Part shown: positions 10,762 through 26,241 of the stretch, in pieces | How the letters are laid out: the number at the start of each line of letters is the position of its first letter | How positions within the stretch are numbered: position 1 is the stretch's first letter | Virus record (IMG/VR): IMGVR_UViG_3300005533_000239 | Span: 1-26,832 of that record | Direction: 5' to 3' (one strand) | DNA from: a virus | DNA length: 26,832 bases | The notes under the pieces: model-generated | The model's database searches: none | Told to the model about the DNA's origin: nothing | Seen by the model: only the letters and a program-made list of their open reading frames with translations | Made by a program: the position numbers and the translations under genes

Positions 10762-11034
10762 ATGTCAGGGGAAGATTTTGTTGATGTGCAACTGAGCGAG
10801 TTTGGAGCGAAATGGTCCGGTGGAACGCTTGTGCGCGTTCACGACGGTCGACATGAATTCTCGTTCGCGCCCGGCCAAACACAACGCGTGACCAAAGCCT
10901 TCGATTGGTTGAGAGTGCTCAGCATCCAGATGATCGATGGCCACCCGCTGTTCGAGATCGCTCCGAAGCCGCAGCCACCTATTGAAAAGATCGCGCCCAC
11001 CAAGGCGCAAAAAAGGGAGAGTGATTCACAATGA
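10762..11034 (+). CDS. Small unknown protein before the tail tube
   Basis: 90 residues that I do not recognise. GAGGAGG overlaps the previous stop (starting 10750) and lies 5 bases before ATG 10762, so translation should be strong. The N-terminal half looks beta-rich (VQLSEFGAKWSGGTLVRVHDG, EFSFAPGQTQRVTKAFDWL) and the end is Pro/Lys-rich. In Mu, a short protein (gp38, DUF2635) occupies a similar place, but I see no convincing match. The end overlaps the tail tube start by four bases (ATGA). Confidence 0.7.
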   Translation: MSGEDFVDVQLSEFGAKWSGGTLVRVHDGRHEFSFAPGQTQRVTKAFDWLRVLSIQMIDGHPLFEIAPKPQPPIEKIAPTKAQKRESDSQ

Positions 11035-12344
11035 GTTATGAGCCGCAACATTTATTAGAGGTGCGCAATCTGGCCCTTGCACCCAACAAGCAGGCCGCGC
11101 TGCAGGTTCCGGTTGCGCTGGCCAGCTACACGCAACGGCCTCGTCTTCCCGGCACATCGTTTGCCCAAATCCAGAAGCAGTATTTCTCGGATGAACAGTT
11201 GGCCAACAAAGGTCACCAGTGGCCAACGTTGAAGGTGCCTACGCAGTACACCACGGCATTCGACGCCACCTGGGATCTGGATAGCTTCGTTGCCGGTTGG
11301 CTCATGGCTTTCAGCATGGGCTCAGTAGTGGTCAGCGGCGCTGGCCCGTTTACCCATGTCTTTAAATTCATTCAATCGTCGAACCAGATGCCGGTGACTA
11401 GCGTCTTATTTCAGGACACCAACGACATCTTTTACCAAATGCCGGACTTGGCGATTTCAGATCTGGTCATTACAGGCAAGGACACCGGAACTGCCCAGGC
11501 ACAGTTCAAAATGGTCGGTACCGGAAAATATGTCGACGGCGCGGTTCCACTTCCTCCAATCACGGTTCCTCAATACCTATTGGCGTCAGATACCGATATC
11601 CTGATCGGCGTTCCTTCACCGCAGATTGCTCCTGTACTCGCTCCTGTGGTGAATGGAGCGCTTGCGGGTGCCACCTATTTCGTGCGCATTACGTACACGA
11701 CAGCCGCCGGAGAAACTCTTGCTGGGCCTGAGTCTTCGATAGTGGTTCCGGCCAACAGCGTTCCACAAGTGATCTCGCCGGCAGCAATGCTCGGAGCCAC
11801 CGGATGGAATGCGTACATCTCGACCGCTACCGGCGCGGAGACCAAACAGAACGTCGCACCCAATGCCATTGGCGCTCCATTTCAACTTCCTGCGGCCGGA
11901 TTGATTGCGGGAACTGCTCTGCCGCTGGCTACGACTGCTCTCAGCAGCATCAAGGAGCGTGTGCGAGAGTGGCAGGTGCATCTTGCCATGGATATGTCTC
12001 CGCATCGGGCGCCGGGTGGAGGATTGTTCGCCACCTTTATGAAGGTTCTGAAGCAGCGAGCAACCTGCACCTTGCAGGTAGCGGCCAAAGACGTCGATGA
12101 CATGCGCAGTCTTTTCATTAACGACACGCTGAGAGAGCTGCAGATCAACATCAACAGCGGCCCATCTCAGCAGCTCTTGATGAAGTTTCCCGGCATTTTT
12201 TTTACAACCCAGCTTTCCGCCCAGGGAGTCGAGTTGACGTGGCAACTCACGGCAGGCGATCAGGACGTCATCAAGAATGGCGTCAATGAAGTATTTCAGG
12301 CCACGGTAATCAATAACGTTCCCGCGTACATGATCGCGGCGTAG
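11031..12344 (+). CDS. Major tail tube protein with inserted Ig/Fn3-like domain
   Basis: 437 residues. The two flanking parts (about 1-200 and 305-437) fit a siphovirus tail tube protein: LDSFVAGWLMAFSMGSV, VTSVLFQDTNDIFYQMPDLAISDLVITG, and the closing strands AQGVELTWQLTAGDQDVI. Tube proteins stack as hexamers around the DNA channel. Residues about 205-302 are an insert that reads as a fibronectin/Ig-type repeat (GATYFVRITYTTAAGETLAG, PESSIVV, GWNAYISTATG). Such inserts decorate the outside of tails. A Mu-type sheath gene is not present nearby, which supports a non-contractile tail. ATG overlaps the previous stop; a run AAAAGGGAGAG lies upstream. Confidence 0.78.
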   Translation: MSYEPQHLLEVRNLALAPNKQAALQVPVALASYTQRPRLPGTSFAQIQKQYFSDEQLANKGHQWPTLKVPTQYTTAFDATWDLDSFVAGWLMAFSMGSVVVSGAGPFTHVFKFIQSSNQMPVTSVLFQDTNDIFYQMPDLAISDLVITGKDTGTAQAQFKMVGTGKYVDGAVPLPPITVPQYLLASDTDILIGVPSPQIAPVLAPVVNGALAGATYFVRITYTTAAGETLAGPESSIVVPANSVPQVISPAAMLGATGWNAYISTATGAETKQNVAPNAIGAPFQLPAAGLIAGTALPLATTALSSIKERVREWQVHLAMDMSPHRAPGGGLFATFMKVLKQRATCTLQVAAKDVDDMRSLFINDTLRELQININSGPSQQLLMKFPGIFFTTQLSAQGVELTWQLTAGDQDVIKNGVNEVFQATVINNVPAYMIAA

Positions 12345-12355
12345 AAAGGAGGACG

Positions 12356-12565
12356 ATGCAAAACTTGGAAACCATTTTCCAGTACCACTCGCCTCGCGAG
12401 GATCAGCTGCCTAAGTATTCGGCGATCAGAGAGGCCGCAAAGCAATTCGCCAAAGTGGTGCTTGAAAACACTCCCAAGTGCGCTGACCAGACGGCGGCTA
12501 TCAGGAAGATACGTGAGTCCATGATGACTGCCAATGCTGCCATCGCTCTTGACGGGATCTGCTGA
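12356..12565 (+). CDS. Acb2/Tad1 hairpin-domain protein, predicted cyclic-nucleotide sponge
   Basis: 69 residues that match, from memory, the short phage family now named for Acb2 and Tad1. The pattern is FQYH at 8-11, a loop (SPREDQLPKY), a first helix YSAIREAAKQFAKVVLENTP, and a second helix with SMMTANAAIA at 55-64. Characterised members bind and sequester nucleotide signals, blocking CBASS (Acb2) or Thoeris (Tad1). Relatives often read Y.PP...Q...Y..IR, TP and MWANAAIA; here Trp is replaced by Thr. AAAGGAGG (12345-12352) gives a very strong ribosome site with a short 3-base spacer. The gene sits between tail tube and chaperone-position genes. Binding activity is inference. Confidence 0.72.
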   Translation: MQNLETIFQYHSPREDQLPKYSAIREAAKQFAKVVLENTPKCADQTAAIRKIRESMMTANAAIALDGIC

Positions 12566-12572
12566 AATAACC

Positions 12573-12600
12573 GGGGCACGTCAATTTGTTGCCGTGTCCC
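12573..12600 (+). terminator. Hairpin after the Acb2/Tad1-like gene, weak terminator candidate
   Basis: GGGGCACG, 12-base loop, CGTGTCCC: 8-bp stem with one G-U pair, six bases after the TGA stop. The following TCCTTCTT is pyrimidine-rich but not a proper T-run. It may be a partial terminator or an mRNA 3' boundary. Confidence 0.4.
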
Positions 12601-12614
12601 TCCTTCTTGAAGTA

Positions 12615-12689
12615 CCGGTGGCACCGCTTCGCTTCCGGATCTGGCCGCACCGCTTCGCGGCCTGCAGGTCGCACCGCTTCGCTACCTGC
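12615..12689 (+). repeat. Array of three hairpins sharing the core GCACCGCTTCGC
   Basis: Three exact copies of GCACCGCTTCGC start at 12621, 12647 and 12671. Each is flanked by short arms that differ between copies but pair with each other: CCGG/CCGG (12615-12618, 12635-12638), GGCC/GGCC (12643-12646, 12659-12662) and GCAGGT/ACCTGC (12664-12669, 12684-12689). The changing but still complementary arms suggest selection for structure. On the minus strand the core contains GCGAAGC, a sequence known to form an unusually stable single-stranded DNA mini-hairpin. The array lies in the 189-base gap before the next gene. Confidence 0.7.
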
Positions 12690-12754
12690 CCGATAGACGG
12701 CTTTATCAATAGGACCATTCCGATCACATTCATTACAAACTTGGAGCGAATCAA

Positions 12755-13522
12755 ATGGAAGATACACAACCGGTGCTGCAAAAAGTCAGTGAAGGAGCGT
12801 TGTTGCCGCTCGATGGCGACAGGGCTGTCTCCTTCATTGATGGTAAGTTTCCCTACACCTTTTACTTCTCTCGCCTAACTCAAGCCGATTGGCAAACCTA
12901 TTATGAGGCAGTGGTATACACCACTCAGAATCAGAAAGAATCGCAAATCACCGTGCTGGACATGGAGAATCCTGGCATTGATCTGGTTCAGCAAAAACTC
13001 ATCAGGGTGGATGGCTATAGAGGAGATTTCACATCCAAACCCGGATGGCAAGCCAAGATCATGCCTCGGCATTTGCGGCCTGCAGCGTGGCTGCTTCGGT
13101 TCGTTGGCCCTTGTGAAGGATTTGGCGAGGATCGTCCATTCGACCCTGAGTGCATCGAAATTGGCCTTACAGCCGCATGGGGAATTACCGAACCCGGCAA
13201 GATGAGTGGCTATGAAGGGCTCGTTCACCGCTTTGCCCCAGTGACCGCTGAACATCGGCGCAAGTTTTATCGGGCTAGCAGCGAGAGCCGTGTTGTGGGA
13301 GGCAGTCGCAACGGCAAAACCATCCATGCTCTTCGCCACAGGCTTCTTTTCTCGTTTTATGACGAGTTGATTCTTAGCGTGGATGGCTACAAAGTGAAGG
13401 ACCGGCCTTTAACCGACGTTACCGAGATACGCAACGAGATGGACGGCTTCCACAAAGTAAAGGCCGTTGAGCTTCTCTTTGCGGGAGCTTCAAAATCAGT
13501 CGATACGGCAGAGGCTGAATGA
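12755..13522 (+). CDS. Unknown protein in the tail-assembly-chaperone position
   Basis: 255 residues; family not recognised. GGAG at 12743-12746 lies 8 bases before the ATG. The N-terminal part looks beta-rich (RAVSFIDGKFPYTFYFSRL), followed by a helical and mixed region with many aromatics, and an end reading VTEIRNEMDGFHKVKAVELLFAG. The gene sits between tail tube and tape measure, where siphoviruses encode their tail assembly chaperones (gpG/gpGT in lambda). It overlaps the next gene by four bases (ATGA at 13519). I see no X XXY YYZ slippery site at its end, so the lambda-type frameshift is not supported. A structural tail protein is also possible. Confidence 0.6.
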   Translation: MEDTQPVLQKVSEGALLPLDGDRAVSFIDGKFPYTFYFSRLTQADWQTYYEAVVYTTQNQKESQITVLDMENPGIDLVQQKLIRVDGYRGDFTSKPGWQAKIMPRHLRPAAWLLRFVGPCEGFGEDRPFDPECIEIGLTAAWGITEPGKMSGYEGLVHRFAPVTAEHRRKFYRASSESRVVGGSRNGKTIHALRHRLLFSFYDELILSVDGYKVKDRPLTDVTEIRNEMDGFHKVKAVELLFAGASKSVDTAEAE

Positions 13523-25330: not shown

Positions 25331-26241
25331 CTATTCCGAAACTGCCAAGTAGTAAACAGCCTTCAACGGAAGGAGTCTCTTGTCGGTCTCGGCTATTTTG
25401 TCGTAATGCTGTACCCACAGATCGAAGAGTTTCTCTGAATCGACTAGAGTGATTTTGCGTGTCTCTTGACCTCTGGCCTCTCTTTCTGCAGTAGAAGTAA
25501 ACCCTCCTGTTGAAACAAAAATCCCACGTCTTGATGTCCCAAAAGGGCCATGAAAGAGCGCAGCCCATCTGCGTCAATCGATTTTGCATGTCGCTTTACC
25601 TGCACCTTGATCCTTGGATTGCTAGTGCCAAGGGGATCGATATGAGCGACAATATCAATTCCCTTATCTGGTCCCGGAGGAGAGATCCACGACACGTGAT
25701 AGCCCATCGCTTTTAATAGAGCTGCTACAAGAGCCTGCAACTCGTAGGGATTCATATTTTGGAGATGACGAGAGATTTCCTCCCAGGCCAACTCTTCCGC
25801 TTCTTCTAGAGTTGTGCTCGCGCTTTCCGGAGGATTATCGTCCGCTTCGTCACTCGCCTCAGGTTGACCAGCTTTCCATTTGCGATAAAGTTCGCCGGCT
25901 TTCCGCGCAAATTCTTCGGGCTCTTTATATTTGCTATATGCAACCTTGCCGTCTTCCGTAAGAACCCATTTGCCTCTGCTTTTTATCAACCATCCAGCTT
26001 TTACGGGTGCTATTGTCCCGAATCGCACAATCTTTTCGAATCGTCGCACGCCAGGGTGTTTTGGATAGTAGCTCTTCTCGAAATCAGTGAGAGTTAGAGA
26101 CTTTTCGAGTGTTGCCAATAAATCTTTTGCCGGCAATCCTTCTGGATGTTCAAGCAAGACCGCGAATGCTTTTCTTCCAATTTCTCCAACTCTTTTTTGA
26201 GTAATTGCGCCATATCCGCTCCATAGAGATGTTGTAACCAC
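25331..26241 (-). pseudogene. mrr: Mrr-type restriction endonuclease, broken by a one-base deletion
   Basis: Starts at GTG 26241. Residues about 10-125 form the Mrr N-terminal winged helix (GRKAFAVLLEHPEGLPAKDL, KIVRFGTIAPVKAGWLIKS). Residues about 150-239 hold the catalytic PD-(D/E)XK domain: ELQALVAALLKAMGYHVSW, Asp196 in KGIDIVAH, and the QVK motif 214-216. Relatives cut modified foreign DNA. At residue 239 (HQDVG) the frame shifts at the CCC run 25523-25525; the present frame stops at 25444. Restoring one G gives GIFVSTGGFTSTAEREARG and a tail through DLWVQHYDKIAETDKRLLPL to TAG at 25331. That is 303 residues, close to E. coli Mrr (304). The cut comes after the active-site residues, so a truncated protein might fold poorly or keep partial activity. 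Confidence 0.85.

Follow-up and report, generated by a model that had tools for sequence, protein, structure and literature searches.

A predicted Acb2/Tad1-type immune-signal sponge carried as optional cargo beside the inferred tail-tube gene of a phage contig with a Mu/B3-like head module

The stretch of DNA analysed here (the window) is the contig of a soil phage, 26.8 kb in length, whose head module (genes for terminase, portal, minor head, protease, major head, head-tail adaptor and neck) is Mu/B3-like. The features with which we are concerned lie in an interval among the tail genes and at its two borders:

11031..12344, + strand: gene inferred to encode the major tail (tube) protein; borders the cargo site on the left, follows the head-tail connectors and is a conserved neighbour in all carriers and non-carriers
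12347..12352, + strand: Shine-Dalgarno AGGAGG of the sponge gene
12356..12565, + strand: gene of the Acb2/Tad1 hairpin family (PF24729) for a 69-aa protein; predicted sponge for immune signals, belonging to the A43/R50/T58 ("MTAN") branch, on the basis of HMM, AlphaFold2 (AF2) model and PDB match
12566..12754, + strand: what remains of the cargo interval, non-coding, with a stem at 12573-12600 ahead of three stem-loops; fold z=-2.7
12755..13522, + strand: tail-region gene without a family (p12755), right border of the cargo site; conserved order

The first of these genes probably encodes the tail tube, since it comes behind the head-tail connectors and ahead of a gene of tape-measure length; PHROG and Pfam searches gave no match for its protein or for that of p12755. 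The small gene between them is confirmed as a real one, because its ATG stands behind a strong Shine-Dalgarno sequence (AAAGGAGGACG-ATG) and 11 nt past the stop of the tube gene, and because most changes relative to its nearest homologue are silent. Compared with that homologue (L002, 96% identical), 11 of the 69 codons are changed, 8 silently and 3 with replacement, and 9 of the 14 base changes fall at third positions; intact homologues are also present in L033 and L036. A first, sequence-only reading of this DNA had counted the ribosome site among the strongest of the window, and it indeed ranked fourth of the 23 starts scored, with a duplex energy of -11.6 kcal/mol, after those at 10762 (-12.2), 7616 (-11.8) and 4419 (-11.7 kcal/mol). 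In base composition the gene does not stand out as foreign within the window (52.9%, tube gene 55.2%); the corresponding values in L033 are 51.5 and 60.5%. Counts of promoters or terminators for the sponge alone were at shuffle level, and an autonomous "moron" cassette is thus unsupported.

Proteins of the Acb2/Tad1 family soak up bacterial immune signal molecules. That the 69-residue protein belongs to this family had been proposed before any database was consulted, and the HMM search bears this out: it matched the Pfam family PF24729 (Acb2/Tad1 hairpin) with E=1e-11 and 45.3 bits at a curated cut-off of 27, as did 17 of 17 aligned relatives. PHROGs contains the family with no function attached, and NCBIfam and PADLOC searches with the protein gave no match. 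Since a phmmer search of the PDB with the single sequence returned designed helical proteins only, a profile was needed to reach solved structures; the profile of the relatives (A1) matched 9ptq (Acb2 homolog 43; E 0.01) and, weakly, 7uq2 (T4 Vs.4, which is T4 Acb2; E 0.11). The direct comparison of A1 with T4 Acb2 was also weak (hhalign probability 14%, E 0.002). In GenBank records of Paenibacillus and Brevibacillus phages (e.g. L026, L242), genes of the hairpin family carry the label "putative phosphomannomutase", apparently a misannotation that has spread.

The AlphaFold2 monomer model (17 sequences) is a two-helix antiparallel hairpin, as had been anticipated, with helices at 15-38 and 43-65, pLDDT 89 and no strands. 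The first four PDB chains found with it by Foldseek were 9ptq, 7uq2, 8h2x and 7uq2 again, all of them Acb2; the top match was 9ptq, in which homolog 43 was solved with 3'cADPR (TM 0.72, rmsd 1.2 Å over 55 columns), followed by T4 Vs.4 and then PaMx33 Acb2. VIA-align gave Z 7.5 to 9ptq (61 residues, rmsd 1.7 Å), 6.5 to T4 Acb2, 6.0 to PaMx33 Acb2 and 5.2 to Tad1. A two-helix hairpin is, however, a common shape: the best Foldseek match had an E-value of 0.96 (probability 0.92), and the Z of 5.7-7.5 reached by the Acb2 entries lies within the range of unrelated hairpins. The fold match therefore leans on the HMM, and the predicted fold supports the HMM result but is no proof by itself. The ligand in 9ptq indicates that short family members are able to bind a TIR-type signal, beyond the signals of CBASS.

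Homolog 43, like our protein, is short and hairpin-only, and its Phe2, His5 and Lys19 correspond in the aligned ranges to Phe8, His11 and Arg25 of the sponge. However, the two are only 21% identical, and homolog 43 has Thr4 at the place of Tyr10 and Arg37, Thr44 and the aromatic Phe52 at the places of Ala43, Arg50 and Thr58. The sponge may have the fold of the Acb2 proteins of T4 (7uq2) and PaMx33 (p26, 8h2j), and by alignment it shares with them the Acb2 trait of a conserved ligand Tyr with a basic residue 15 positions further on (Y8/K23 in T4, Y11/K26 in PaMx33, Y10/R25 here). These proteins are longer, with 88-94 aa and a longer stretch between the helices; T4 Acb2 moreover has Thr68, Trp76 and Phe82 where the sponge has Arg50, Thr58 and Ala64, and vs.4 sits among small non-virion genes. 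The sponge and Tad1 (CbTad1, 7uav/8kbf; motif SRENACALTHVEEALMW) have the hairpin region in common, but Tad1 has an N-terminal beta-sheet (PMC12043709) which the strandless 69-residue model lacks, and its helix 2 follows the pattern Arg/Thr/Trp (SRE...T.......W; Arg/Thr/Phe in 9ptq) instead of Ala43/Arg50/Thr58. ORF101 of the Tunturiibacter phage Tunturi_1, annotated as hypothetical, is 60% identical, belongs to the MTAN branch and comes from a phage with an Acidobacteriota host; unlike the gene in the window, it is placed outside the tail module, in a group of small ORFs close to RNase H.

It had been remarked in the sequence-only reading that the usual Trp before ANAAIA is Thr in this protein. 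The Thr is correct, but it is no peculiarity of this protein, being the rule in about 90 distinct sequences. We aligned the 91 sequences of the sponge's own branch with 72 of a Paenibacillus-like branch; motif patterns were used to gather both sets, and the Trp set, which comes from one Paenibacillus-like query, is narrow, so that the exact fixation of residues is overstated. The sponge's branch has Ala43, Asp44, Ala47, Arg50, Arg53, Thr58 and Leu/Cys65, the other Arg43, Glu44, Leu/Val47, Thr50, Glu53, Trp58 and Arg65, whereas Phe8, Tyr10, His11, Pro13, Tyr21, Arg25, Pro40, Met57, Ala59, Asn60 and Ile63 are common to both. As far as the alignment tells, Thr58 is thus a branch trait and part of a larger residue switch; a near-fixed set including Ala43, Arg50 and Arg53 marks the whole subfamily. 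The switched residues are mostly 3-4 apart, which would put them for the most part on a single face of helix 2.

Does this switch mean that the protein binds something else? It is possible, at somewhat less than even odds in our judgement, that the changed helix-2 positions (43, 44, 47, 50, 53, 58, 65) make a retuned sponge, by which cyclic trinucleotides and gcADPR would no longer be bound as they are by relatives, and another TIR- or CD-NTase-made signal would be taken up instead. The near-complete difference at these seven positions, next to the shared Phe8, Tyr10, His11, Tyr21, Arg25, Met57, Ala59 and Asn60, argues for this. Position 43, Ala here, is Arg in homolog 43, Tad1, the Trp branch and PaMx33, where it is Arg67, a trinucleotide contact that is given no weight as evidence here. 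Furthermore, Arg50 aligns with T4 Thr68, and the phage Bas35 variant T68M was reported to have lower binding (PMC12657230). On the other hand, the fixed differences may also be structural, and their apparent fixation is inflated by the narrow Trp set. Intermediates exist as well among phages found without motif seeding, with positions 43/50/58 read by eye: Ala/Arg/Trp in Jenst, Ala/Thr/Phe in phage 1706, and Arg/Thr/His in Chidiebere, with Myrna and Tunturi_1 having Ala/Arg/Thr. L021 is a further intermediate, with Arg/Thr/Thr.

Genomes with relatives of the sponge are those of Acidobacteriota and Planctomycetota, besides a few others; among annotated phages, the one with the nearest relative infects Tunturiibacter (Acidobacteriota). 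We searched for the capsid gene in 299 genomes of Terriglobia, the inferred class of Acidicapsa; 37 of them have a related gene (best 47% identical), and one Terriglobia contig carries a collinear head-tail module. The capsid protein had no match in the genomes of five sponge-bearing bacterial loci, and these loci therefore do not fix the host. An acidobacterial host is likely, and the earlier suggestion of a poorly sampled host group is plausible on the same grounds. SMODS nucleotidyltransferases were found in 23 of 200 Terriglobia genomes and ThsB-type TIR domains in 39 of 200, counted as family matches rather than confirmed operons, so that both signal types would be available as targets.

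The SMODS enzymes would fit another possibility, namely that the protein binds cyclic dinucleotides as T4 Acb2 does and is directed mainly against CBASS. We consider this rather unlikely. The pair of the dinucleotide pocket is kept, with Tyr10 in 92% and Arg25 in 98% of the branch, and the Tyr8 to Ala mutant of T4 Acb2 is binding-deficient (PMC12657218, PMC12657230). However, Phe82, which stacks on the ligand base in T4 Acb2 (PMC12657218), has no equivalent in the sponge; since the aligned residue is Ala in PaMx33 Acb2 too, Phe82 is not a defining Acb2 trait. Moreover, the crystals of the closest homologue with a solved structure contained 3'cADPR, and in the probable host class ThsB-type TIR genes are no rarer than SMODS genes. 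With the Tyr/Arg pair kept, Phe82 missing and 3'cADPR in the nearest solved relative, the ligand may be of the CBASS or of the TIR type.

In the interval between the tube gene and p12755, the sponge is optional accessory cargo. A search with the single tube protein gave only 3 tail-module loci, while the tube alignment gave 17. We compared 13 lineages that have this tail module in common; the sponge is present in 4 (the window; L209/L210; L217 = L033; L220/L222 = L036/L037) and absent in 9 (L211, L213, L214/215, L216, L218, L219, L221, L223, L224; the L219 contig ends before p12755 but past the stem-loop array, and was counted as a non-carrier). The tube genes of L033, with the sponge, and of L199 (= L219) and L200 (= L214), without it, are about 90% identical in DNA, and 3' of the L033 sponge the sequence GTAACGAGTGGACAG runs on as in L200; this comparison of presence and absence does not tell gain from loss. 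Between L033 and L036 the tube proteins are 85% and the sponges 72% identical, which may reflect either faster change or separate acquisition of the sponge. Two other ORFs are candidate anti-defence or regulatory cargo of the same slot: a LuxR-type HTH ORF (PF00196) in L221 (5359-5658) and an ORF without a Pfam family beside the sponge in L220 (5532-5942). At the right end of the window, an Mrr-type restriction endonuclease gene (25444-26241, - strand; PF04471, 1.1e-14) is possible phage defence cargo or host flank.

Could the protein nevertheless be a part of the tail? Other Mu-like modules have the sponge elsewhere: L005 beside the head-tail adaptor, L069 and L108 between the genes for minor head and protease, and L073 between those for portal and minor head. 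In unrelated phages, portal, terminase, scaffold or endolysin genes make up 9 of the 20 sponge neighbours tested, and others are DNA/RNA-metabolism (helicase, RNA ligase), methyltransferase or integrase genes. The patchy presence at one site and the unrelated neighbours make a tail part unlikely. A small tail or tail-assembly protein with a chance helical-hairpin likeness to Acb2/Tad1 would fit the strong ribosome site, the tail-region genes on either side, of which the inferred tube gene is one, and the many homologues adjoining virion genes, but we find it highly improbable given the 9 of 13 lineages that lack it, its varied neighbours in unrelated phages and a curated family match that is to sponges. 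The sequence-only reading, which had described the gene as embedded in the tail operon, was thus right about the placement, but its words should not be taken to mean a tail gene. Short anti-defence ORFs at fixed sites between core genes are also known among the accessory genes of Pseudomonas Mu-like siphophages, in regions of genomic plasticity which include anti-CRISPRs (PMC4378225); those proteins are different, and the plastic regions are found mostly on the left arm of the genome. In the cultured Gordonia phage Chidiebere (L240), a hairpin-family ORF directly follows the portal gene in a virion module; after it come an RNA ligase and an ORF that bears the annotation ADP-ribosyltransferase.

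We therefore favour, with a probability of about 0.75, a sponge with which the phage takes up an immune signal, either a cyclic nucleotide or cADPR, and whose gene is carried as cargo beside the tail-tube gene and co-transcribed with it. The weak direct comparison with T4 Acb2, the commonness of hairpin folds, Ala64 in place of T4 Phe82 and Ala43 in place of the Arg of PaMx33, Tad1 and the Trp branch speak against this reading. In this sponge, minimal hairpin-only protomers are predicted to pack into the hexamer of the Acb2/Tad1 family, and the pockets between protomers would bind, without cleaving it, a cyclic oligonucleotide of CBASS or a TIR-made cADPR isomer; with the signal sequestered, the host effectors would stay off. 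It had been proposed that the sponge is made with virion proteins, and the place on the tail-gene transcript, 11 nt behind the tube stop, agrees with this. Behind a presumably very abundant late tail-tube mRNA, the strong ribosome site would give a high dose of sponge, which would be needed because sponges act stoichiometrically and not catalytically. The sponge would also be made as virion proteins, the triggers of some Thoeris systems, accumulate. In staphylococci the major capsid protein triggers Thoeris (PMC12578639), and late co-expression of a sponge would therefore be useful.

A bolder idea, rather unlikely in our judgement, is that Ala43/Arg50/Arg53/Thr58 define a class with a ligand of its own, in which an Arg moved two helical turns along helix 2 and the oligomer was retargeted to a signal not known for Acb2/Tad1; Acidobacteriota and Planctomycetota phages would then ship it beside virion genes so that its dose follows virion output. 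Neither the family nor the sponge idea is new. The branch and the way it is carried as cargo in the tail slot are, as far as we searched, undescribed. The preprint of Hadary et al. 2025, a survey of sponge diversity which is cited in PMC13232231, may already include members of the branch, and the novelty would then be lower. If our preferred reading of an immune-signal sponge is true, it provides a defined, testable sponge branch (about 90 distinct sequences in our sample) from hosts whose phages have hardly been studied. Paired phages with and without the gene, together with a sharp residue switch, would be material for learning how sponge specificity changes, and the position beside virion genes of high output hints at the way in which phages set the dose of inhibitors that are not catalytic.

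Lastly, the cargo interval also holds three consecutive stem-loops (window 12612-12693, units at 12621, 12647 and 12671) with the constant core GCACCGCTTCGC. In the alignment A3 of 10 phages (window, L209, L211, L213, L214, L217, L218, L220, L223, L224), 9 of the 18 predicted pairs show compensatory changes of both bases in one phage or more, and an Rfam search of the window gave no match. The array always lies between the tube gene and p12755 in these phages, with or without the sponge, and it therefore belongs to the tail operon and not to the sponge; it has the look of a conserved element of RNA (or DNA). In L238, a Terriglobia genome contig whose collinear head-tail module lies on the reverse strand, similar stem-loop sequences (GGCACCACTTCGCC, GGGCACCTTCGCCC) follow the tube gene at the corresponding place, suggesting that the element is older than the phage group of the window.
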